Shown here piece after piece: positions 15,623-26,943 of a stretch of DNA of 27,518 bases. Numbering within the stretch: position 1 is the stretch's first letter; each line of letters begins with the position of its first letter. The notes below the pieces were generated by a model that made no database searches, was not told the DNA's origin, and saw only the letters and a list, made by a program, of their open reading frames with translations. A program made the position numbers and the translations under genes. This DNA comes from a virus. Location: IMG/VR virus record IMGVR_UViG_3300029908_000118, positions 1 to 27,518 of that record. One strand, given 5' to 3'.

Positions 15623-16500
15623 CTAATTTTCTTTTCGGCAGTTCGGGTGCTCAAGGGCCAACCACTATTACTTCTAGTGTTGGTGGGGTTCCCGATTATT
15701 ATCAAACATACCAAAGTGCCCTTCTTAATATGGGCAACCAACTGGCTTCGCAACCCTACGCGAATTATCCTGGGCAGACGGTTGCCAACTTAACACCGGA
15801 TCAGTTGCAAGCTCAGCAGATGACGGAGCAGAATGTCAATTCAGCGCAGCCTTATCTAAATCAGTCCGGGAGTCTTTATAGCCAGGCTGGGGCTGGGTTT
15901 AATCAGAATAACTTCAACCAGTACATGAACCCATATCAGAATGATGTGGTGAATGCGCTGACTAATGCGAGCAATACGAACTTTAACCAGAATGTCATGC
16001 CGCAACTCAATTCAGAATTTATCGGCAGTGGCACTTATGGCGGTAGTCGTAACGCGCAGATTCTTTCGCAAGCGGCGGTGCAAAACCAGCAGAATCTGAA
16101 TAACCAGATCGCCAGCACAGAATCCACCGGCTACCAAAATGCAATGAATGCATATCAGACTGGCACAAACCAGCAGATCGCTTCGGCGCAAGGGCTTGGC
16201 ACACTGGCTGGACAGGTGAATAATTCCAACTTGCAGAATGAGTCCGCGCTTAATGCCGTTGGCCAGCAAGAGCAAAACCAAAACCAGACAAGTCTTAATT
16301 CGGCATACAATAATTTTCAGCAGCAGCAGCAATATCCGTATCAGCAACTAAATTTCTTGAGCGGCTTGCTAAGTAATAACCAAGCAACGATCCCATATTC
16401 AACGCAGACATCAGCAACGTCACCGGTGAATACATCGAATCCGCTTTCTACGTTAGGCTCTAGCGTTCTTGGACTAGGTGCAGTGCAGGGGTTAAGCTGA
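15619..16500 (+). CDS. Gln/Asn-rich internal virion protein
   Basis: The ATG overlaps the previous stop. The 293-residue protein is rich in Asn, Gln, Ser and Tyr. It contains YMNPYQNDVVNALTNASNTN, then MPQLNSEFIGSGTYGGSRNA, QLNFLSGLLSNNQATIPYST and AYNNFQQQQQYPYQQ. This combination ('YxxPYxxxVVxALxxxxxxNFxxxxxPxxxxxFIxxGxxGGSR' and 'YPYxxLNFLSGLL') marks a family of podophage proteins encoded in the internal protein cluster. A role in DNA ejection is inferred. No enzyme motif or signal peptide is present. Confidence 0.6.
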   Translation: MTNFLFGSSGAQGPTTITSSVGGVPDYYQTYQSALLNMGNQLASQPYANYPGQTVANLTPDQLQAQQMTEQNVNSAQPYLNQSGSLYSQAGAGFNQNNFNQYMNPYQNDVVNALTNASNTNFNQNVMPQLNSEFIGSGTYGGSRNAQILSQAAVQNQQNLNNQIASTESTGYQNAMNAYQTGTNQQIASAQGLGTLAGQVNNSNLQNESALNAVGQQEQNQNQTSLNSAYNNFQQQQQYPYQQLNFLSGLLSNNQATIPYSTQTSATSPVNTSNPLSTLGSSVLGLGAVQGLS

Positions 16501-18158
16501 TGTTGGCGAATGGTAACTACCTTCCTAACCCTAACCAGCAGCTTGGGGGCAGTTTCAGTCAGGCTTTGCAGTCCGGCACTGGCCCATGGGGAAACACGGT
16601 TGCAACACCTACGGATAGCAGTATGCCCACAGGACAGGACGTGGATCAGTCATTGTCAGCCCTAGCAGCGAATATCCCCGGCACAAGTACAGGCAATACA
16701 GGCCCTAATTCCATGCCAGCCGGTGCGCCGACTGATTTGGCCTCTGCAATGGCCTTGGTGGGTGGAGGTAAAGGCCCGCTTGCCACTATCGCACAGGCTA
16801 CTGGTGCCCCTACTGCCGCCACGGCAAGTCCTGGGTTGGCAGGTATGGCAGGCTACTCACAGCTATTGGAGCAGCAGGCTTCGCAGCTTCCCGCGTTGCA
16901 GCAGCAGCAATCAAGCAACCGCGCCGCACTCATGCAGGCGTATAATAATCTTGCGCAGCAGCAGGCTAACTATAAACCGCCAAGCCAGATTAACGTGCCT
17001 TTGATGGCTATGGCGGCGGCGGGTGCTGAGAACCCGGCAAATCCATTGGGGCCGTCACTAGCGGCGTATGCTGGTGCGGCCAATCAGCAGGCACAGCAAG
17101 AACGGACGCAGAATAATCAGAATATTGACACGCAGATGAAGATTGCCGCGTTGCCAGTGCAGTTCTCAGATGAAGACGTGAAGAACGCTATGGATGCGGC
17201 GAAAGAGGGTTTGACTGCTGATAAGACGCAGCAAACTCTTTTGATGCAAATGAATAACGAAAGAATTAAGCAAGGATTGCCGCCAATAACAAGTTTGTAT
17301 AGCCCAACAGCAACGACACCATTGGGTAATGGGATGGCGCAAGATGAAAATGGCCTTCTATTAAATTCACAGGGGCAACGTATAACGCCAACTGGGAATG
17401 CTCTGTCACCTGCTGAAATTAAAGATTCACTGAAACAAGTGGATCAAATGACTAAAAATGAAGATTTGGCAAAAACAGATTCATTGGTGGATGCCGCAAA
17501 TACTTTAACCACAATAGCAAAACAAAATCCTAATTTGAATCCATACTCGTATTCAGTTTCTGGTTTTAATTCAAAACTTCCTGGTGCAAACAACGCAGTA
17601 AGCCCTCTTTTGGATTACTTAACGCCTGGTTCTGTTTTGACACCGGAAGATTTGGCACGTTATAATTCTGCTGCTGATATCGTGAACTCTGCTGCTTTTC
17701 AGGGTTCTAAAAACATTCGTAACTTGTTTGAATTTAGAACTACAATTGGTGGAACAGATGTTAAAGGTATGGCAGCTGCAGCCACCGCCGACATAGCAAA
17801 TAGTGCGGCGGCTAGGTATCAATTAAGCCAAACTGAAAATCAGTTTTTGAAAGATTACCAAGCGAAATACAACACATTACAAGGCTTCGATGAACTATTC
17901 CAGAAATATGTTAAAGATACTTCCCCCGCAATTAAGGATTCAACAGGCAAAGTTATTGGGGTAAATCAAGATGCGCTATCACCCGCAACTTATACAAAAT
18001 ACGTTGACAACGCTCCCATAATTTATAGAGCAGTTAAGAACAATGTATCTGCTCCTGCTGCGGCCATTTTAGATTTGACACAAAACCCGAATCTTAGTTC
18101 TGATTTTGATGAAAAGTATGGCGCGCAATCTTCCACTAAAATACTTGGAAGCCAGTAA
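16500..18158 (+). CDS. Large low-complexity internal virion protein
   Basis: ATG at 16500 shares a base with the previous stop. The 552-residue product has an Ala/Gln-rich first half with coiled-coil features (SQLLEQQASQLPALQQQQSS, then YNNLAQQQANYKPPSQINVP). A more complex helical second half follows (VLTPEDLARYNSAADIVNSA, LFEFRTTIGGTDVKGMAA). Its position between two ejection-type proteins suggests an internal virion role. No lytic transglycosylase or protease motif was recognised. The final TAA overlaps the next ATG (TAATG). Confidence 0.6.
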   Translation: MLANGNYLPNPNQQLGGSFSQALQSGTGPWGNTVATPTDSSMPTGQDVDQSLSALAANIPGTSTGNTGPNSMPAGAPTDLASAMALVGGGKGPLATIAQATGAPTAATASPGLAGMAGYSQLLEQQASQLPALQQQQSSNRAALMQAYNNLAQQQANYKPPSQINVPLMAMAAAGAENPANPLGPSLAAYAGAANQQAQQERTQNNQNIDTQMKIAALPVQFSDEDVKNAMDAAKEGLTADKTQQTLLMQMNNERIKQGLPPITSLYSPTATTPLGNGMAQDENGLLLNSQGQRITPTGNALSPAEIKDSLKQVDQMTKNEDLAKTDSLVDAANTLTTIAKQNPNLNPYSYSVSGFNSKLPGANNAVSPLLDYLTPGSVLTPEDLARYNSAADIVNSAAFQGSKNIRNLFEFRTTIGGTDVKGMAAAATADIANSAAARYQLSQTENQFLKDYQAKYNTLQGFDELFQKYVKDTSPAIKDSTGKVIGVNQDALSPATYTKYVDNAPIIYRAVKNNVSAPAAAILDLTQNPNLSSDFDEKYGAQSSTKILGSQ

Positions 18159-21034
18159 TGGCAAATTATTTTGATCAATATGATGCCACAGCACCAACTA
18201 ACAATGGACAAACTGCGAGTGCTAAAAATCAAAATACTGGTAAAAATTATTTCGACCAGTATGATGCGCCCATCCCTTCTTTGGCTGCCGATCAAAACCA
18301 ATCTAACGCCAGTACACCACAATTGCAGCCTAGCAATTTTTTCGAAAGGTTGGGTATGGCAAGTGCTGGCGATGCAGACCAACAAACTGAGGTAGCAAGA
18401 CAGGCGGCCCTTTATTCTAAAAATTTGGCCGTTGGAGCTTTAAATGCTTTGGATACACCGAACCAGGTTCTAAATACGGCATTGGCAATCCCCGGTGCTG
18501 CCACTAAATTTGCCCTAGATCAGTTCAAGTCAGGCACTCAGCCAGCTTTTGTGCAAGATTTAGGCAGCGAGATAGCCAAGAACGGTAGCCCGCCACCAAT
18601 CGGACAGCAATTTGAAAATGATTATAATAAATGGACTGGAAACCAGATTCAGCCAGTAGATAATACGGAAAAAGACATTGGTGCAATGCTTGAAATGGCA
18701 CCTAGCGGCGCATTATTTGGCGGAAAAGCGCTTCTTGGAGCAGCCCTCGGTGGTGGCGCTCAACAAGAAATGTCTAACCGTGGTTTATCACCCGACCAAT
18801 CTGCTCTTTTGGGAATAGTAACAGGTGGCGGAGTTATGAACGCGCCAGAAGATATCGCAAATATGGGCAAAAGCATCTCAAATGGTACGGGAAATATAAT
18901 TCGTGGATTACCTGGAATAAATCAAGATGCGCTTAAAGCGACATATGAGCAAATGCAATCGCAATATACACCTGCTATGCAAGCAGCAAAGAATGTTCCT
19001 TTAACTGATGATGCAACACAGAAATTTTCAGATAATTTTAACGATGCTGTTTCCAATGCAGACATTAAAGAAAAATTGCATCCCGCAACTACTGGTGTGG
19101 TTCAAGAGGTGCAGGATAGACTCGCTCCTCAAACGGATGATGATGGCAACGTCATTGGGCCAGCTCAGCCACTTAGCTTTGGAGAATTAGAGTATTTTAA
19201 ACGCCGGTTCCAACAGGCATCTCAGACTGGCGTAGGTTCTTCCGATAGCGGTGCAGCAAACGCGCTTAGAAAAAATATCATTGATTTTAGAAACGGCCTT
19301 GCGCCAGAAGATATAGATGGTGATCAGGCTGCCTTGCAAAATGTGCAAAATGCCAATGCTTCTTATCGCGCGGGTAGTCAGTATGAGCAATTGGCTGATT
19401 TGTTGACAAATTCCAATGGTGACATCAACACCTTTAGAAACAAGTTACGATCCCAACTCAATAATACAAAGAGCGACCCATTTGGCGGTTGGGCACCAGA
19501 AGACGTGCAAACTCTAAGAGACTTTGTTGATGGCTCAACAGTTGAGAACGTCGCTGGTTTGTTAGGAAAATTCGGGTTTGATTTTAAAAATCCAACATCT
19601 ACTGCCAATATAGTGCGCGGTGTGGCTGAAACTGGCGGAAGTTTAATGGCACCTGGTGTTGGAATACCATTGGGTGTTGCTGGCACCGTTTCTAAACTTG
19701 GCCTTAATGCCCTAAAACGTGGGCAGCTTCAGGGTATATTAAGCGATCTAGAATCTCGCACAAGGGATCCTGTTCCGCCTTCCCCTATGGCCCCCCCACC
19801 GGAACCACCAACACTGCCGCCTTCACAGCTTGCACTGCCGCCACCGACACTTGGAATTGAAGGCCCGCGCGATATCCAAGTCACTCCAAGTGGGCAGGCC
19901 ACTGAGGTAACCAGTTTTCAACAGCAGCTTGCGAATCTAATTAGAAACAATCGTTCTGATTTGGGTTTAACGCCTGATGTGCAGCAAAATATTCACAACC
20001 AGAGTCCTGATGTTGCTGGTGCGCGTGCGCTTTCACCTGCTTATCAGGCACCGACAACTTTGGCGCTACCTGCACCAGAACAACCCACAACGCTTGTTGG
20101 CAATAATGGCGCATTGCGTCCTATGACGGTTGAGGAAAATGCCGCTGCAACCCAAGCACGTCAATTGCGCGCACAACTTGGCCTTTTGCGCGCACAACTT
20201 GGCCTTTCGCCTGATGTGCAGCAGGTAATTACTCTTAATGATTTATCATCTATTCCGAATCTTGGGCAAGCATTTAAGAAGCTTGATCCCGTTCATCAAG
20301 AATATGTTTTGGAGCAACTCAATGCTGGATTTGATAATCCCCAATTGCCTCCTGGTGCAACATGGATTTCTGGCAAAGCGCCAGTTTCTGCTGATGAACT
20401 AGAAGCAAACAATAACGCTGCATTGGTGGGCACAAATAAAGATATTATTGATAGAGTAAATCTAATTCGCAATCCTCCTGCACCGCCGAATTTTTCTGGT
20501 TTGCTAAATTACCTAAAACAAAAGGGTGGTGTTCAAGATGTTGGCGGCGATGTCCGCTCAATTCTTGGTGGCGCAAATCAATACCCTGGCCTAGTTAATT
20601 CTGGCGGACAAACATTGGATGATGCTGCTTTAGCCGCACAAGAGGCAGGATATTTTCCTAGTAAAAATCTTGCGCAAGGCGATAGGGCAACCGTAAATGA
20701 TTTGCTGGATGCCATAGAAAAAGAACATAAAACAGGGAAAATTGCACCAAGTCAAAAGGACGTTGAAGCAAGTCATGACTATGCGCATAATATAGGCATT
20801 GCAGATGAAATGGAGCAAATTCTTGGCAATCATGGCCTTCACGCCGGAATGTCTGACGCGGATATTATTAAAGGGCTTGGACTAGATCATCCCTATGACC
20901 CTTATTTGCCGATAGAAAGGTATTCAAAGGGTGGGCTATTGCGATCCAAATATCCGCCCGTATCAATCCTTCCCCCACCGCCGCAATCCCTTGGCACCAT
21001 TGGCGCACAGCTACAGGGTGCAGGAAACTCTTAA
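18158..21034 (+). CDS. Very large internal virion / ejection protein (958 aa)
   Basis: The N-terminus carries two copies of NYFDQYDA (residues 3-10 and 30-37), comparable to FDQFD repeats at the start of large podophage injection proteins. Hydrophobic Gly/Ala segments follow around 185-225 and 470-500. A proline-rich linker comes at about 540-570 (PPSPMAPPPEPPTLPPSQL), then a tail with LAAQEAGYFPSKN and a final YSKGGLLRSKYPP. No lysozyme or transglycosylase catalytic signature is visible. The size and place at the end of the cluster fit the largest channel-forming ejection protein. A 21-base tandem duplication lies at 20165-20206. Its stop abuts the stop of the leftward gene. Confidence 0.65.
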   Translation: MANYFDQYDATAPTNNGQTASAKNQNTGKNYFDQYDAPIPSLAADQNQSNASTPQLQPSNFFERLGMASAGDADQQTEVARQAALYSKNLAVGALNALDTPNQVLNTALAIPGAATKFALDQFKSGTQPAFVQDLGSEIAKNGSPPPIGQQFENDYNKWTGNQIQPVDNTEKDIGAMLEMAPSGALFGGKALLGAALGGGAQQEMSNRGLSPDQSALLGIVTGGGVMNAPEDIANMGKSISNGTGNIIRGLPGINQDALKATYEQMQSQYTPAMQAAKNVPLTDDATQKFSDNFNDAVSNADIKEKLHPATTGVVQEVQDRLAPQTDDDGNVIGPAQPLSFGELEYFKRRFQQASQTGVGSSDSGAANALRKNIIDFRNGLAPEDIDGDQAALQNVQNANASYRAGSQYEQLADLLTNSNGDINTFRNKLRSQLNNTKSDPFGGWAPEDVQTLRDFVDGSTVENVAGLLGKFGFDFKNPTSTANIVRGVAETGGSLMAPGVGIPLGVAGTVSKLGLNALKRGQLQGILSDLESRTRDPVPPSPMAPPPEPPTLPPSQLALPPPTLGIEGPRDIQVTPSGQATEVTSFQQQLANLIRNNRSDLGLTPDVQQNIHNQSPDVAGARALSPAYQAPTTLALPAPEQPTTLVGNNGALRPMTVEENAAATQARQLRAQLGLLRAQLGLSPDVQQVITLNDLSSIPNLGQAFKKLDPVHQEYVLEQLNAGFDNPQLPPGATWISGKAPVSADELEANNNAALVGTNKDIIDRVNLIRNPPAPPNFSGLLNYLKQKGGVQDVGGDVRSILGGANQYPGLVNSGGQTLDDAALAAQEAGYFPSKNLAQGDRATVNDLLDAIEKEHKTGKIAPSQKDVEASHDYAHNIGIADEMEQILGNHGLHAGMSDADIIKGLGLDHPYDPYLPIERYSKGGLLRSKYPPVSILPPPPQSLGTIGAQLQGAGNS
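18164..18268 (+). repeat. N-terminal NYFDQYDA peptide repeat
   Basis: The peptide NYFDQYDA is encoded at 18164-18187 and 18245-18268. Four of eight codons differ synonymously (TTT/TTC, GAT/GAC, CAA/CAG, GCC/GCG). The repeat is therefore kept at protein level and probably binds a partner more than once. Confidence 0.7.
20165..20206 (+). repeat. Perfect 21-base tandem duplication
   Basis: TTGCGCGCACAACTTGGCCT plus T is present at 20165-20185 and again at 20186-20206 with no mismatch. It adds seven residues (LRAQLGL twice) in frame in the ejection protein. Zero divergence suggests a recent event. Confidence 0.9.
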
Positions 21035-21463
21035 TCACTGATAAGCGATTTCTGCGTGTTCCTTGCAGTAACTACCGATGGCTTTCTTGGCGCAGAACAT
21101 AGTGGCGACTTTTCCGTTATCTTCAACAGGCCAACGGCAGTCATTGGGGCCTAAATCAAACATGGTTTTAGAATCACTGCCCCCTGTGTAAAAAGATTTA
21201 TCATGTAATGCGCTTAAGTCTTTACAGGTTTTCTTTTTTTCCATATTTCGCTTTTTCTTTTCTTTAAGCAGTGCTTTCTTGAATGATGAGGCTAAAAGTT
21301 TCTCGTTATATTTCGATGGAATTTGCAGTCTTTGCATTTTAGCGATTATGGAATTTCGGGAAAATCCTAGTTTTGCACTTATTTGTGCAGCACTGAGATC
21401 GCCGTATGAAGCCAGTTTTCTTAGTTCTTCCTCTTTTTCAAGAGGCCAAGGTTTGCCCACCAT
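21035..21463 (-). CDS. GcrA-like cell cycle transcription regulator
   Basis: The 142-residue protein has the two-part GcrA architecture. An N-terminal helix-turn-helix (residues about 7-48: WPLEKEEELRKLASYG, then LSAAQISAKLGFSRNSII and AKMQRLQIPS) matches 'LSxxQIAxxLGxxTRNAVIGKxHRLGL'. A C-terminal sigma-interacting part (NDCRWPVED at 107-115, then FCAKKAIGSYCKEH) has Cys109, Cys124, Cys133 and His136. A lysine-rich linker (61-80) is longer than usual. In alphaproteobacteria GcrA binds sigma70 and activates promoters carrying CcrM-methylated GANTC. A phage copy could redirect host or phage transcription. It is encoded leftward, against its neighbours, downstream of a small overlapping gene. 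Confidence 0.8.
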   Translation of the reverse strand: MVGKPWPLEKEEELRKLASYGDLSAAQISAKLGFSRNSIIAKMQRLQIPSKYNEKLLASSFKKALLKEKKKRNMEKKKTCKDLSALHDKSFYTGGSDSKTMFDLGPNDCRWPVEDNGKVATMFCAKKAIGSYCKEHAEIAYQ

Positions 21464-21641
21464 TATCGAGATCCTGACGGTTTAGGATTTGTGAAAGCTG
21501 GTTTATGATGATGATATTGGCTTCACCAACTGCCAAGGTTGCGCCAATGGCTAGGGCTTCGGTTTCTAAAATATCATCGTCAAGAATGAGCTGAGCGTAG
21601 TAGTTGGCGCGTTCCAGGATTGGCGGTATTTGATTCGTCAT
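21438..21641 (-). CDS. Small protein upstream of the GcrA-like gene (67 aa)
   Basis: It overlaps the GcrA-like start by 26 bases, which suggests translational coupling in a two-gene leftward unit. The product (ANYYAQLILDDDILETEALA, then IGATLAVGEANIIIINQLSQ) is acidic and helical, with no recognised domain. No ribosome binding site is visible. A leftward TATAAT box at 21649-21654 would place the transcript start about at the ATG, so a leaderless mRNA is possible. Its CATG start is shared with a plus-strand ATG. Confidence 0.55.
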   Translation of the reverse strand: MTNQIPPILERANYYAQLILDDDILETEALAIGATLAVGEANIIIINQLSQILNRQDLDNGGQTLAS

Positions 21642-21704
21642 GCAGGATATTATATTATCGAATCAATCAATATGGAAAGGGTTTATTTTGCTGGACATCG
21701 AATC
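21632..21704 (-). promoter_or_regulatory. Candidate GANTC-containing leftward promoter of the GcrA-like operon
   Basis: TATAAT on the minus strand occupies 21654-21649, eight bases from the leftward ATG. GANTC sites occur at 21632-21636, 21660-21664 and 21700-21704, three in 73 bases against about one per 256 by chance. The middle one lies five bases upstream of the -10. GcrA promoters in Caulobacter carry GANTC close to the -10/-35 region, so autoregulation through CcrM methylation is a reasonable inference. No good -35 is seen. Confidence 0.4.
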
Positions 21705-22584
21705 ACTGTTGAAAGTGACTAATGCCGAAGCGTTTGCGCTGAAATATGCGTATGGGCGGGCGCTTGCGGCGCAGGTGAAAAAGAGAGTTCACTATCCTTA
21801 TAAATCTGTCAGCGTGATTATTGCATCAAGGTTGCAGCGGGATCCAACGGGTAGGCTATGGCTGGAAAGGGCTTTGGGAAGCATTTTTTGCCAATCAGTG
21901 CGTTCAAACCTTGATATTGAAATTATTGTTGGGGTTGATGAAGATGCGGAAGTACCTGAAAACCGGAATATCAAGGTTGTAAAATCTGAAGGAAAATCAC
22001 AGGCTCACGCGCTCAATGCGGCGGTTTCAGTGGCGCAGGGTGAAGTTTTGGCCTTTCTTGAAGATGATGACGTTTGGCACGCGAAAAGGCTCGATGAAGG
22101 TTTAATAGCCCTTGGTGGGTTTGATTTCGTCAGTTCAAACCAGTTGGAATACATTGTTGATGTAAACGCGCTGAGACTTTACCAAAATATCAACGATTAC
22201 GCGACACCTTCGGGTTGGATGCTGAAACGCGATTTATTCAATAAAATAGGGCCATTTGATGTCAGCTATAAATATCACCTTGATACTGAATGGCTTGGCC
22301 GCTTGAACCGTTTTGGCGCAACTAGGTGCCACATGGTTGAGAAAGGGTGCTTAGCGTCATCTAGTGATATGATTGTGAGACATAGGACGAAACTGGCTGT
22401 TATTATGTATCAGTCCGCCATTGGATCGTGTCTTTGGAACAGTTATGAAGATAATCCCCTAGTATATCGTGCCCTTCATCCTGAAAGCGGTATGGGGCAG
22501 ATAGCAAATAACATGGAAGCGGCAATCCAAAGCCAGAATGAGCACCGCCGTATCAAAGAAGTAAACAAGACTAACGTATGGTGA
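21688..22584 (+). CDS. Glycosyltransferase family 2 (GT-A) protein
   Basis: TTG at 21688 is preferred because GGAAAGGG (21674-21681) lies seven bases upstream. The ATG at 21640 has no ribosome binding site and overlaps the divergent gene's start. The 298-residue product shows a GT2 core: SVSVIIASRLQ (about residue 40), WLERALGSIFCQS, IEIIVGVDEDAEVPENRNIK, KSQAHALNAAVSVAQGEVLA and then the metal-binding FLEDDDVW (EDDD at 125-128). YATPSGWMLKRDLF and KYHLDTEWLGRL, with a late acidic DTEW, belong to the acceptor half. It transfers a sugar to an unknown acceptor. It lies beside the GcrA-like gene and before appendage proteins, so modification of virion or host surface is possible. Confidence 0.7.
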   Translation: MLDIESLLKVTNAEAFALKYAYGRALAAQVKKRVHYPYKSVSVIIASRLQRDPTGRLWLERALGSIFCQSVRSNLDIEIIVGVDEDAEVPENRNIKVVKSEGKSQAHALNAAVSVAQGEVLAFLEDDDVWHAKRLDEGLIALGGFDFVSSNQLEYIVDVNALRLYQNINDYATPSGWMLKRDLFNKIGPFDVSYKYHLDTEWLGRLNRFGATRCHMVEKGCLASSSDMIVRHRTKLAVIMYQSAIGSCLWNSYEDNPLVYRALHPESGMGQIANNMEAAIQSQNEHRRIKEVNKTNVW

Positions 22585-22636: not shown

Positions 22637-23359
22637 ATGGCCTTTAACTATAAACTTGCATTCCAAGCAGCCAGCAATAACAACATTGCTTTGGCTCAAA
22701 CCCTTGCGGCTGCGGGCAATCTTTCCCTAAACGGCTCACTGAAACAGACGCTAACGCCCAATGATGGCGGGACGATATCGTTTTTTCCAAACCAAGGACA
22801 AAACTCTACTAATTCTGATTCCACTGTATTCGGAGGCTATAATGTACCCGTTACGCTTACCAGCACGGGCAATTTGTCAGGGGTTACTTTTACAATCACT
22901 GGTTTTCAGAGTGAGCCTTATAATCCTTTTATTCCTGTTACCGAGACTATAGCTGGCCCGAATAATAACACAGTTACATCTGTAAATTTCTATAATCGGA
23001 TTTTGAGTATTTCGGCTTCGGCGGCGGTTGGGACGGCAGTATCAGCAGGTACTGGTGCAACCGCTGCGTATAGCAGATGGCTTCCTGTTGATGGCCCAGG
23101 TGCAAATAGCAATGCAGCAGTTGCCGCTTTTGTATCTGGTACAATAAACTACACAGTGCAACATACGTTTGATAATATTTTTAATTCTACGGAAACGATC
23201 AATGTGTTTAACATTGATGATACAAATTTAGTTAATGCGACAACATCGCAAGACAGCAATTATCTATTTTCGCCGCGTGCAATTCGTATCCTAATCAACA
23301 GTGGTACTGGTTCACTGGTGTTCTATGTCAACCAATCTGGCCTAGTGGGTTCAATCTAA
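22637..23359 (+). CDS. Beta-rich virion structural protein
   Basis: A strong GGGGGA ribosome binding site precedes the ATG. The 240-residue protein has the series NVPVTLTSTGNLSGVTFTIT, then GFQSEP, ETIAGPNNNTVTSVNFYNRI, then LSISASAAVGTAVSAGTGA, and finally TINYTVQHTFDNIF. This 'VTITSxGxxSGxxFTIxGxxxxG...ETIxGPN...VxxIxxS...VSxGT...GxxNYTVxxTxDD' order recurs in phage structural proteins of unknown detail. It opens a three-gene cluster of surface-type proteins and shares part of its layout with the protein at 4610. The next gene overlaps its stop. Confidence 0.6.
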   Translation: MAFNYKLAFQAASNNNIALAQTLAAAGNLSLNGSLKQTLTPNDGGTISFFPNQGQNSTNSDSTVFGGYNVPVTLTSTGNLSGVTFTITGFQSEPYNPFIPVTETIAGPNNNTVTSVNFYNRILSISASAAVGTAVSAGTGATAAYSRWLPVDGPGANSNAAVAAFVSGTINYTVQHTFDNIFNSTETINVFNIDDTNLVNATTSQDSNYLFSPRAIRILINSGTGSLVFYVNQSGLVGSI

Positions 23360-23664
23360 TGACGATTACATATTTATCTTCTGGCGGAGGCGGCCCCACT
23401 TCTGCTACCCCTTTTGAGTTCGGCGGCACGTCCACGGGCACAGCCTCACAACTGACATCATTCCCTATCACAAGCTTCGCGTTTCTTCAGAACACGAGCG
23501 CATCGGGCAATATTTACGTCGGCGGCCCCGGAATCCTAGCATCAGTTGGTGCCTCAGGAAGCGGGTACCCTGTTCTGCCCGGTGGTCAGGTGCCTCTCCC
23601 TGGTAACAACACAAACCTAACTTGGGTAATCGGCGTGGGTACTTACGCGGTCGCAGGGTGCTAA
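23359..23664 (+). CDS. Small Gly/Ser-rich structural protein (101 aa)
   Basis: The ATG overlaps the upstream stop. The protein contains FLQNTSASGNIYVGGPGILA, then SGYPVLPGGQVPLPGNNTNL and TWVIGVG. This is a compact beta domain resembling phage proteins with the pattern 'NTSASGxIYVGG...GxPLxPGxxVPL...LxVIG'. A minor virion or appendage role is inferred from its neighbours. Confidence 0.55.
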   Translation: MTITYLSSGGGGPTSATPFEFGGTSTGTASQLTSFPITSFAFLQNTSASGNIYVGGPGILASVGASGSGYPVLPGGQVPLPGNNTNLTWVIGVGTYAVAGC

Positions 23665-23665
23665 A

Positions 23666-24973
23666 ATGGCTTTCTCACCGATAACCGCACCGTCGATCAG
23701 CAAAGTTTCTGGTTTAGCAATTACAATCGGCTCGGTGGCGTACAGCCTAACCGCATCTTATGCCTTAGTGTCGCTCACAGGGGGCGGCCCATTTCAACTG
23801 CCAATTACAGCCGCCGGTGCTTATATCGTTACGGCAAATGTAGATATTACGGGTGCGACATCAGGCGACGATGTTCGGTTTAAGATTTACGATAGTGCCG
23901 CATCTGCGTATGTGGCAAACACAGAAACCTTGGTTTCAATTGATTCTAACGGCGAAGGTTCTGCATCACTACAATTTCCTTACACGGCATCGGGCGCAAC
24001 TAATTTACAGCTCTACGCGGTTAATAATACAGCGGCTCGCGGCTCTATTGCGGCCAACACTTCGCGCCTGAGTTACATATCCGTTTCTTCTGCCAGCACG
24101 CATCCCCTTCCAAATATCACGAGTTTCACACCGGCATACGGCGTTAGCACATCCGTTGCGATCACGGGAACAGGCTTTACAGGGGCAACTGCTGTTTCTT
24201 TCAACGGCACGGCGGCGACAAGTTATACTGTTAATTCCGACACGTCCATTACGGCAACAAGTCCGGCAAGTTTTACGAACGGCCCTATTTTAATTACAAC
24301 ATTAGGCGGTACGGCCACAAGCTCCACAAACTATACCCAAACCGCACCCGCTGCTGTGCTTCAAGTGGGTCATATCTATTCAGAGAATGGTGATACTAAT
24401 TCCCCAATAAATATCGGCGGTGTAACTTCAAGCGGCGCGAATAGTTTATGGGTTCTAGGTGTTTATTCAGCGACTCAATGCAATACACCTACCCTGAACG
24501 GCGTAAATATGAACACCGCCCAAGTAAGCACGGATTCAAGTGGCAAGTACTTGGGGGTTTATTATTTATATACTTCCGCATCCCTCAGTAATGTTACGTG
24601 TGCCACGCCTAATGAATTGTTTTTCGGCTACATTGCTCAATTGGTTGAATACAAATCTTCGCTGGATATAATTGGTAATTCGTCTTTCACATCTCTCAAT
24701 TACTCGGCTGGCACAATCAATCTTTCGCCTGTCACCACAGCCAATACTGGCTCTACGATTTACAGCCTGGTTGGCGGCGTCAGCAATAGTGCTACCACGG
24801 CAGGCACAGGCTATTCATTAAATGGCAGCCACATTATCGACGCGAATCTTGACTTCGCACTTTCTTCCGAGACAAGTACAAGCACGTTCTCAGCAAGCAC
24901 GACTGTAACGCCTACAGCTACGATGACTGACAATTCTTCCCGTGCTGCATCAATTACATTTGAGATTGCATAA
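23666..24973 (+). CDS. Appendage protein with an IPT/TIG domain
   Basis: The 435-residue protein has three parts. Residues 1-145 form a beta domain (VAYSLTASYALVSLTGGGPF and onward). Residues about 148-228 are an IPT/TIG Ig-like domain (PNITSFTPAYGVSTSVAITG, then TGFTGATAVSFNGTAATSYT and SPASFTNGPILITTLGGTA). The C-terminal 200 residues are Ser/Thr-rich beta sequence, with a final SITFEIA. IPT/TIG domains occur in phage tail adhesins and bacterial surface proteins. It is a candidate second receptor- or glycan-binding appendage. No enzymatic motif is seen. Confidence 0.65.
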   Translation: MAFSPITAPSISKVSGLAITIGSVAYSLTASYALVSLTGGGPFQLPITAAGAYIVTANVDITGATSGDDVRFKIYDSAASAYVANTETLVSIDSNGEGSASLQFPYTASGATNLQLYAVNNTAARGSIAANTSRLSYISVSSASTHPLPNITSFTPAYGVSTSVAITGTGFTGATAVSFNGTAATSYTVNSDTSITATSPASFTNGPILITTLGGTATSSTNYTQTAPAAVLQVGHIYSENGDTNSPINIGGVTSSGANSLWVLGVYSATQCNTPTLNGVNMNTAQVSTDSSGKYLGVYYLYTSASLSNVTCATPNELFFGYIAQLVEYKSSLDIIGNSSFTSLNYSAGTINLSPVTTANTGSTIYSLVGGVSNSATTAGTGYSLNGSHIIDANLDFALSSETSTSTFSASTTVTPTATMTDNSSRAASITFEIA

Positions 24974-25215
24974 TGAATCAAGATGGCAAACTAAGTGTAC
25001 TTACCCTAAGCCTCACGAGCGCGGCTTTGTTTGAGTTAGGCGGTAGTGGTGCGCTTTACGATGCAGCGGACAAGGTGGCTCGGCACACGCAGCATTATCC
25101 GCGCGCGGAATTGCTTGGCATTTGCGCTTTTGCTTTTGGTGCGGTGGGGCTGACGAAAGCGGTTTTTGTCGGGGCGAGTTTATTAGCCAGAAAATACAGA
25201 GGATTGAACTTATGA
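24973..25215 (+). CDS. Small protein with one membrane segment (80 aa)
   Basis: The ATG overlaps the previous stop (TAATG) and the stop overlaps the next start (ATGA). One hydrophobic segment, about residues 46-69 (AELLGICAFAFGAVGLTKAV), is followed by a basic end ARKYRGLNL. It begins the chain that leads to the lysis genes, so a holin-like or antiholin role is possible but unproven. Confidence 0.55.
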   Translation: MNQDGKLSVLTLSLTSAALFELGGSGALYDAADKVARHTQHYPRAELLGICAFAFGAVGLTKAVFVGASLLARKYRGLNL

Positions 25216-25448
25216 CCGACCTGCACAGCCTTGTTAAACGCCGCATCGCGCAGGCCAACCCTGGGCGCAAACTATTGATGGTGCGCGTGGAGTTTCATCG
25301 GACTTCGGAAAACGGCATCCATATCGTGCTTGAGGCTGAAGAAAAAAACAGGGCAGTTGTTGGGCAGATCGTTGTTCCAAATAATCTCATTCCTGTTTTT
25401 ATCCGCGAGAAACCAAGCAAAGAACTAGACAAGGAGTTCAAACTATGA
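25212..25448 (+). CDS. Hypothetical soluble protein (78 aa)
   Basis: ATG at 25212 overlaps the preceding stop, which decides the start over a longer frame to 25122. The protein is short, charged and probably alpha/beta (KLLMVRVEFHRTSENGIHIV). No family is recognised. It is coupled on both sides to membrane-associated lysis-region genes. Confidence 0.55.
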   Translation: MTDLHSLVKRRIAQANPGRKLLMVRVEFHRTSENGIHIVLEAEEKNRAVVGQIVVPNNLIPVFIREKPSKELDKEFKL

Positions 25449-25795
25449 CAGGGGATAACATACCCGGCAATCTAAGTGGCCGCATTAGTGTTCTTGAGGC
25501 AATCATTCCGCGCGTTGAGCGAATTGCCGAAGAAACCAATAAACTCATCTTTACGAAACTTGATTTCATCAGGGACAATATGGTTACGCAAAAGCAACTG
25601 GCCGAAGAACTGCATGGCATCCAGAAATATCAGACTTCAAATGATGATATGGCGCTAGATAATAAAAAAAAAATCCAAAATTTACAGCTCCAAGTGTACG
25701 GCCTGGGGATAGTTTTTGTCATCAGTCTTTTCGTGGGGGCAGCGAAAACCCTTTCGGTTATTAGTGTCATCGGCCCCAAGATAATTTCGCCATGA
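25445..25795 (+). CDS. Coiled-coil protein with C-terminal membrane anchor (XhlA-like topology)
   Basis: The 116-residue product has a helical, coiled-coil-like N-terminal part (residues about 12-75: ISVLEAIIPRVERIAEETNK, then LAEELHGIQKYQ). A transmembrane segment follows at about 83-103 (LQVYGLGIVFVISLFVGAAK). This topology is shared with XhlA-type lysis accessories, and the gene directly precedes the lysozyme. A run of ten A (25664-25673) lies before the membrane segment. The function is inferred from topology and neighbours only. Confidence 0.55.
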   Translation: MTGDNIPGNLSGRISVLEAIIPRVERIAEETNKLIFTKLDFIRDNMVTQKQLAEELHGIQKYQTSNDDMALDNKKKIQNLQLQVYGLGIVFVISLFVGAAKTLSVISVIGPKIISP

Positions 25796-26220
25796 AACCG
25801 TCAGAAAACGCTCTTGCACTGGCTAGAACCTTCGAAGGATGCAGATTGGCTGCTTATCGCGACAGTGCTGGAACCCTGACAATCGGATACGGGCATACGG
25901 ATGGCGTACAAGACGGCGATACTTGCACGCCAGAACAGGCTGAATTTTGGCTTAATAGTGATATGACGGCAGCGGGTTTATGGGTATCGCGCTATGTCAC
26001 GACTGAACTGACGCAGAATCAATTTGACGCGCTCAGTGACTGGGTTTTCAACCTTGGAGCGGGTAATTTCGAGGAGTCATCCCTGCTGCGCTATGTAAAC
26101 GCCCGCCAATTTGACGCGGCTTCAGAGGAATTTCCTAAATGGGTTCATGCGGGCGGTGTAGTGCTTCCTGGCCTTGTATCTAGGCGCGCGGCTGAACAAC
26201 AACTATTCGTGACGGTGTAA
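25792..26220 (+). CDS. Endolysin, GH24 (T4-type) lysozyme
   Basis: The 142-residue enzyme contains RTFEGCRLAAYRDSAGTLTI and then GYGHTDGV, the GH24 active-site region. Glu15, Asp24 and Thr30 have the E-8x-D-5x-T spacing of T4 lysozyme. LTQNQFDALSDWVFNLGAGN and the C-terminal SRRAAEQQLF also fit lambdoid and P22-type lysozymes. It hydrolyses the MurNAc-GlcNAc bond of peptidoglycan at the end of infection. There is no signal-anchor sequence, so release through the neighbouring holin is expected. The start overlaps the preceding stop. Confidence 0.9.
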   Translation: MKPSENALALARTFEGCRLAAYRDSAGTLTIGYGHTDGVQDGDTCTPEQAEFWLNSDMTAAGLWVSRYVTTELTQNQFDALSDWVFNLGAGNFEESSLLRYVNARQFDAASEEFPKWVHAGGVVLPGLVSRRAAEQQLFVTV

Positions 26221-26221
26221 G

Positions 26222-26443
26222 ATGGCTGGATTGTTTGACAGCACTGATCGAAGCGTGGAGGCCCACATTGTCTATGCCGGCCTGGGTGTGGTTGCAGTGA
26301 TTATCTGCGCTATTATATTCGTCATCCTGGATGTTAAGGATTTCCACCTCAGTGATCTAGGTATCGCAATCGGCAGCATCATGACGGGGAGCGGCGTTGG
26401 GGCTGTCGGGCAGGGAATACAGTCACGGATTACACCGCCATGA
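26222..26443 (+). CDS. Holin-like membrane protein
   Basis: The 73-residue protein has a strong membrane segment at about 14-38 (AHIVYAGLGVVAVIICAIIF) and a second weaker one at about 43-66 (LGIAIGSIMTGSGVGAVGQG). The context fits a holin: just after the lysozyme and overlapping the Rz gene start. It would form lesions in the inner membrane that release the lysozyme. No sequence family name can be assigned with certainty. Confidence 0.65.
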   Translation: MAGLFDSTDRSVEAHIVYAGLGVVAVIICAIIFVILDVKDFHLSDLGIAIGSIMTGSGVGAVGQGIQSRITPP

Positions 26444-26871
26444 TAGATTGGCTGCAAGTTATCCTGACTGCCATCGCCACGGCCACAATAGCCTTTGGGC
26501 TGCATGAGATGGACGTCGAGTTCATCAAGGCCAACCAGGCGGCGGCGCTGGCGGCGCAGAAGCAGGAACTATCTACCCAATGTGATGAAGCCAAACAACT
26601 AACAGAAAAGGTGTCCCATGATTATGAGACTCAGCTTTCTAGCCTTAATGCTCAGCTTAGCAAGCTGCGCCAGTCCACCATCTGCGTGCCAATTGCCCCC
26701 AATACCCCAAGACATAATGGCCCCGCCGCAAGCAGCAGATCCCCTGGAAAGAATGAAATTGCTGCTGGCACCCTTTATGATTACGCAGGGGACTACGCAA
26801 AAGAGCGACTCCAACTAGTCGCTTGCCAGAATTTCGTAACCCAAACATGGGATATGAACAGAGGGAGGTGA
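26440..26871 (+). CDS. Rz-like inner-membrane spanin
   Basis: The 143-residue protein has an N-terminal membrane anchor (MIDWLQVILTAIATATIAFG) followed by a helical periplasmic part (residues about 28-80, KANQAAALAAQKQELSTQCD and onward). This is standard i-spanin topology. A second gene is embedded in the +1 frame with a lipoprotein signal, the classical Rz/Rz1 arrangement. The two proteins bridge inner and outer membranes and disrupt the outer membrane after cell wall breakdown. The start overlaps the holin stop. Confidence 0.75.
   Translation: MIDWLQVILTAIATATIAFGLHEMDVEFIKANQAAALAAQKQELSTQCDEAKQLTEKVSHDYETQLSSLNAQLSKLRQSTICVPIAPNTPRHNGPAASSRSPGKNEIAAGTLYDYAGDYAKERLQLVACQNFVTQTWDMNRGR
26618..26818 (+). 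CDS. Rz1-like outer-membrane spanin lipoprotein, nested in Rz
   Basis: Lying wholly inside the Rz gene in another frame, the 66-residue product starts MIMRLSFLALMLSLASC, a signal peptide ending in lipobox LASC with Cys17. The mature part is proline rich (PPSACQLPPIPQD), as in Rz1 proteins. AAGGTG precedes the ATG at 26618; ATG at 26624 is an alternative. It would be lipidated, anchored in the outer membrane and pair with the Rz protein. Confidence 0.75.
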   Translation: MIMRLSFLALMLSLASCASPPSACQLPPIPQDIMAPPQAADPLERMKLLLAPFMITQGTTQKSDSN

Positions 26872-26876
26872 TTTGC

Positions 26877-26900
26877 ATGGCTAAGAAAAAGAAAAAATAA
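26877..26900 (+). CDS. Seven-codon lysine peptide ORF (MAKKKKK)
   Basis: A consensus ribosome binding site (GGGAGGTGA at 26863-26871) precedes the ATG by five bases, then GCT and five Lys codons before TAA. The strong initiation signal is unexpected if nothing is translated. It sits five bases before the intrinsic terminator. It may be a micro-peptide, a degraded Lys-rich gene like those at 547-826, or a chance signal. Confidence 0.35.
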   Translation: MAKKKKK

Positions 26901-26904
26901 CACT

Positions 26905-26943
26905 AGGGGGCCGGGCATATAGCACCACAACGGCCCCCTTTTT
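26905..26943 (+). terminator. Intrinsic terminator of the rightward late operon
   Basis: GGGGGCCG (26906-26913) pairs perfectly with CGGCCCCC (26931-26938). An A-T pair extends the stem, the loop is 17 bases, and TTTTT at 26939-26943 follows. It stands after the spanin genes and before oppositely oriented genes. The T run reaches the stop of the leftward gene. Confidence 0.9.

Follow-up and report, generated by a model that had tools for sequence, protein, structure and literature searches.

In Caulobacter crescentus and other Alphaproteobacteria, host GcrA (PF07750; 5YIU, 5YIX and 7YE1) shares with the phage protein described here the two-domain layout, the fold, a CxWP motif, a Cys/Cys/Cys/His set and an AYQ motif, and its gene likewise has a GANTC-rich promoter. 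The phage protein differs from it by an identity of about 34%, several changed invariant residues, the absence of a C-terminal tail and a lysine-rich linker. In C. crescentus, GcrA activation is linked to methylated GANTC within an extended motif, TGATTCG or in its broader version YGAKTCK, which the same source did not recover for Brevundimonas (PMC7987155). Some sites are bound by GcrA without methylation (PMC3667746). In Caulobacter, a GANTC placed between the -10 and the -35 is associated with activation in S phase, 40-60 minutes into the cell cycle (PMC4287350). The gcrA promoter of Agrobacterium tumefaciens contains several GANTC sites, as does the one studied here. However, it is chromosomal and repressed by methylation, and its sites are not known to have the uniform TGATTCG form (PMC11514494).

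Phage-encoded GcrA has been known since 2012 from phiCbK and others. Full-length members of the GcrA family, like the protein found here, are gp222 of Caulobacter phage phiCbK and its relatives (PMC3556154). In its leftward unit gp222 likewise comes second, after a short ORF, and a divergent operon faces the unit. Nevertheless, the two proteins share only 23% identity, and phiCbK strongly avoids GANTC and has none in the upstream 200 bases. Caulobacter phage RW, a member of the same clade as the present phage, has gp061 at the corresponding place, directly after the structural operon and in opposite orientation, but gp061 comprises the DNA-binding half only. The literature we found only speculates that phage GcrA acts on host genes. 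The apparent novelty of our locus lies in a phage gcrA preceded by a divergent promoter that is host-like and rich in methylation sites.

The analyzed stretch (the window, 27,518 bases) is a virus record from IMG/VR and represents a fragment of a short-tailed phage. Its head, tail and DNA-ejection genes are orientated rightward and end at 21034. The 512-aa structural protein shared 39.5% identity with its RW counterpart over 97%, and several further genes matched RW, G030 and G031 with the gene order kept. The phage is RW-like. The features discussed below are as follows.

21035..21463, minus strand: gcrA-like gene, 142 aa, Pfam PF07750
About residues 5-47 of the 142-aa protein: DNA-binding domain (DBD)
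About residues 51-97 of the 142-aa protein: lysine-rich linker
About residues 98-142 of the 142-aa protein: sigma-interacting domain (SID)
21438..21641, minus strand: 67-aa ORF (P0002), first gene of the leftward unit, overlapping gcrA by 26 bases
21631..21637, plus strand: TGATTCG site 1; TTGATTCG (21630-21637) also gives the -35 of the rightward promoter
21659..21665, minus strand: TGATTCG site 2, between the -35 and -10 of the leftward promoter
21699..21705, minus strand: TGATTCG site 3, about 60 bases upstream of the predicted leftward start
-10 at 21654-21649 and TTTCCA at 21678-21673, minus strand: leftward promoter TTTCCA-18-TATAAT, 10/12 consensus matches (a consensus match only)
21630..21658, plus strand: rightward promoter-like TTGATT-17-TATTAT, 9/12 consensus matches (a consensus match only)
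21688..22584, plus strand: family-2 glycosyltransferase, first gene of the divergent rightward unit
22637..26871, plus strand: rest of the divergent unit, with surface-like proteins, small membrane-type proteins and endolysin
25792-26220, plus strand: endolysin, part of the divergent glycosyltransferase-lysis unit
26906-26943: hairpin-T5 sequence, before which the divergent unit ends

An earlier note on this DNA had described a leftward GcrA-type gene amid rightward genes, and this was borne out: gcrA is located between the rightward gene 18158..21034 and a rightward block from about 21688. The stop codons of gcrA and of 18158..21034 abut. Because no terminator was seen between the end of the late operon and that of gcrA, late transcription would run antisense through gcrA. 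An AGGA resembling a Shine-Dalgarno sequence was read 8 bases before the gcrA ATG. The 67-aa ORF and gcrA probably form a two-gene leftward operon with gcrA as the second gene. For the glycosyltransferase we preferred the TTG start at 21688 over the ATG at 21640 because of GGAAAGGG just upstream. Within the divergent unit, the 435-aa protein (23666-24973) had no family match; by eye it contains an IPT/TIG-like stretch, and it is possibly a surface or head-fibre protein. The lysis genes are followed at 26877-26900 by a very short ORF (MAKKKKK) that has GGAGG as its Shine-Dalgarno sequence, just before the terminator-like hairpin.

Past the structural operon, on the opposite strand, genes with similarity to gcrA were found in RW (DBD only), in G031 (full but diverged) and in G030, where a weak SID-only match stayed below the curated cut-off. 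A GcrA match was present in only 2 of 50 related records, many of which are fragments. The gene is therefore sporadic in the RW-like clade, and its position is recurrent. A split GcrA in RW consisting of gp061 and gp062 was ruled out, since gp062 has no SID. Near-identical contigs (L003-L005) were reached via the head-region protein; they are fragments of 7-12 kb and contained no gcrA match. No close relatives were found for the GcrA-like protein in viral contigs, genome contigs and phage records, for the glycosyltransferase and the 435-aa protein in viral contigs, or for the 958-aa protein in phage records. No relatives were found for the 67-aa ORF, including in the viral contigs, or for the locus as a whole.

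The match of the 142-aa protein to PF07750 spans both domains (75.7 bits, E 6.9e-21, profile positions 3-146 of 155) and is above the curated cut-off of 26.9. In the AlphaFold2 model two domains are confident, most of each having pLDDT >90, and the linker between them is poorly defined. In Foldseek the best PDB match was 7ye1_G from the C. crescentus GcrA activation complex. The SID matched 5yix_B (SID with sigma70) with a TM of 0.73 and the DBD matched 5yiu (DNA-binding domain) with a TM of 0.78, both by target length. By family and modelled fold, the 142-aa protein is a GcrA.

The protein was aligned with 115 host sequences, which include six second fetches of the same genomes. Here, W6, G21, I28, N37, K42 and R45 were kept, as were all of the SID invariant residues C109, W111, P112, D115, C124, Y132, C133, H136 and A140. 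With regard to a possible loss of GcrA contacts the alignment is mixed: CRWP, the Cys/Cys/Cys/His set and AYQ, which forms the exact C-terminal end, are present, but near-invariant residues were substituted in the DBD (W18 to A, G41 to A, H44 to Q) and in the SID (G114 to E, P116 to N, F121 to T). These six positions are conserved, yet lie outside the curated definition of PF07750, and the residues found in the phage occurred there in 0% of the 115 host sequences. Furthermore, the linker is indeed unusually lysine-rich as noticed before, with 28% lysine compared to a host mean of 6% (maximum 31%) and a phage mean of 11% (maximum 24%). The best-scoring full-length host matches reached the identity of about 34% given above. 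Placement in a tree was dropped, as the protein formed a long branch without resolved position. The divergence is consistent with a fast-evolving member of the GcrA family. Both contact surfaces may be affected by the changed residues, and the protein is a candidate methylation-dependent sigma70 cofactor.

The GANTC sites reported earlier at 21632, 21660 and 21700 are all present. They had been assigned to the start of the gene; this holds for the probable operon start at the 67-aa ORF but not for the gcrA ATG at 21463, of which they lie 173-241 bases upstream. The plain density of GANTC there is not beyond chance. The window contained 74 GANTC compared to 77 expected, and 57% of the shuffled windows held a cluster of three in 73 bases. 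The local P of about 0.016 refers to a place chosen after the fact. Raw GANTC density was therefore rejected as evidence. A tighter cluster of three GANTC is located at 16059-16124 inside the coding sequence of a structural gene and does not have the extended form.

All three sites at the operon start are TGATTCG, those of sites 2 and 3 being on the minus strand. The window contained four TGATTCG (3.7 expected), three of which lie within these 75 bases; the fourth (8103) lies within a coding sequence and has no obvious regulatory role. Given that only one of the 71 other GANTC has this form, the chance that all three do is 4/64,824. Three TGATTCG within 75 bases occurred in 0 of 3000 shuffles. 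For YGAKTCG and YGAKTCK, such a cluster anywhere in the window was found in 4 and 44 of 3000 shuffles, respectively, the figure for YGAKTCK being lower at this particular place. In 2.0 Mb of control phage and host loci no TGATTCG cluster was present, and of four YGAKTCK clusters one was located right before a host gcrA (L245). The extended-site cluster is non-random.

A chance cluster, with the GcrA-like gene acting elsewhere or decaying, was weighed against these numbers. Plain GANTC clusters of this density are expected randomly, the TGATTCG motif was noticed only after the three sites had been picked, and the protein departs from invariant residues. The shuffles and the 2.0 Mb of control loci argue against chance, however, and the gcrA ORF is intact with a well-folded model, so that we consider this explanation very improbable.

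The -10 boxes of the leftward and rightward promoters overlap. The GATTC of site 2 (21664-21660, minus strand) lies 5 bases upstream of the leftward TATAAT (21654-21649), as had been described, and site 1 overlaps the rightward -35. Since TATAAT is found 7 bases before the ATG of the 67-aa ORF and no Shine-Dalgarno sequence is present, the predicted start would fall on this ATG and the message is probably leaderless. GcrA-activated promoters are recognized by TGATTCG or YGAKTCK near the start; here three TGATTCG lie within -65 to +40 of a predicted start.

Sites 1 and 2 flank both -10 boxes as the arms of a perfect 8-base inverted repeat, TTGATTCG/CGAATCAA, and sites 2 and 3 form a direct repeat, ATCGAATCA, with 40-base spacing. 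Operators commonly have such a layout, with inverted and direct repeats at overlapping divergent promoters. The repeated TTGATTCG might be read by another regulator (a phage repressor or the 67-aa protein, for instance) and match the GcrA site by coincidence, and a genome without GANTC avoidance would fit such an operator as well. The repeated word is, however, exactly the published GcrA motif and is placed before a gcrA gene, and outside the TTGATTCG word the repeat is poor. We regard an unrelated operator as quite unlikely.

The start regions of host gcrA genes were analyzed for comparison. At 115 host loci, many of which are Hyphomicrobiales and hence not independent, 2.40 GANTC were found per 250 upstream bases compared to 0.30 expected from the flanks. 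A total of 45/276 host GANTC sites were located exactly 6 bases before a TANNNT box, compared to 5 before TATAAT here. The host promoters (L131-L245), mainly from Hyphomicrobiales, commonly showed the arrangement GACTC-TTG...GAGTC-N6-TATTGT, with GANTC about 8-fold over flanks. This shared GANTC-rich promoter, in which one site directly precedes the -10, suggests that gcrA is widely under methylation control in Alphaproteobacteria. A common host promoter of the form TTGATTCG-17-TANNNT was rejected, being present at only 2/115 loci. Enrichment before phage gcrA genes in general, as expected from the earlier interpretation, was rejected too: the 32 viral gcrA-like loci, including this one, had 10 upstream GANTC compared to 11.4 expected. 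Because host loci are enriched in GANTC and the other viral loci are not, this start region resembles a host gcrA promoter rather than other phage gcrA starts.

This resemblance also bears on a direct effect of methylation as proposed for A. tumefaciens gcrA. Full CcrM methylation of the promoter GANTC would repress the gcrA operon, and a replication fork or fresh unmethylated phage DNA would switch it on, with no binding of GcrA there. The A. tumefaciens promoter carries 6 GANTC in 250 bp and is CcrM-repressed even in E. coli (PMC11514494), and the hallmark of the host promoters, a GANTC before the -10, resembles the site here. The flanks tell against it. Host gcrA promoters mostly have other flanks, with a mean of 0.45 YGAKTCK among the 2.40 sites, whereas the uniform TGATTCG found here points to GcrA itself. 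Direct methylation control is in our view unlikely.

The explanation we prefer is control of divergent promoters by GcrA and methylation, which as a whole we judge to have about an even chance of being right. The gcrA operon and the divergent glycosyltransferase-lysis unit would start from overlapping sigma70-type promoters with three TGATTCG. Host GcrA, the phage protein or both, bound to sigma70 via the C-terminal domain, would be recruited to TGATTCG when it is methylated. Recruited GcrA would set the balance between the two promoters, acting back on the gcrA operon and also influencing the divergent unit, and the phage programme would thereby follow the methylation and replication state of the host. 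We infer binding, methylation dependence and direction of effect at the TGATTCG sites. The reading of the gene as a GcrA regulator is supported by family, fold and the three TGATTCG at the operon start, while GANTC density is weak evidence for it. In this sense the earlier observation is confirmed and its interpretation is partly supported, on stronger grounds than GANTC density. Through the TGATTCG sites at the operon start, expression of the phage genes may be coupled to the methylation clock of the host. Points against the preferred explanation are the lack of GANTC avoidance in this genome, the missing enrichment upstream of other phage gcrA genes, the substituted near-invariant residues and long branch of the protein, and the failure to recover the extended motif in Brevundimonas.

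A more far-reaching version is doubtful. Here, the phage would possess a complete epigenetic module, made up of a diverged GcrA of its own and two divergent promoters under the control of three optimal GcrA/CcrM sites. From the methylation state of its DNA it would sense whether this is newly entered, replicating or mature, and would switch accordingly between the glycosyltransferase-lysis unit and the gcrA operon. A phage gcrA together with a promoter with three optimal GcrA sites would allow a direct and cheap test of host DNA methylation as a phage clock.

GANTC is under-represented in Alphaproteobacteria with CcrM (PMC3973325). In this genome no avoidance was seen (observed/expected 0.96), unlike in phages whose hosts are known to methylate GANTC, compared to ratios of 0.15-0.25 in Caulobacter phages and 0.36-0.64 around host gcrA genes. 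The RW-like relatives ranged from 0.0 to 1.3, and many avoid GANTC. As avoidance is absent, the host may not methylate GANTC; either it has no CcrM, or the phage may be free of the avoidance pressure. If CcrM is absent from the host, the methylation part of the preferred explanation would no longer hold, though some sites are bound by GcrA in unmethylated form (PMC3667746). The Sinorhizobium (S. meliloti) phage phiM5 (L246, whole 44 kb) contained no GANTC at all (observed/expected 0.00), and neither did L092, L121 and L125, which is extreme avoidance. Additionally, a full GcrA-like protein is encoded in L033, 16495 bases of an AT-rich (31% GC) virus record of 313,762 bases, in which CTNAG was almost absent (0.07).
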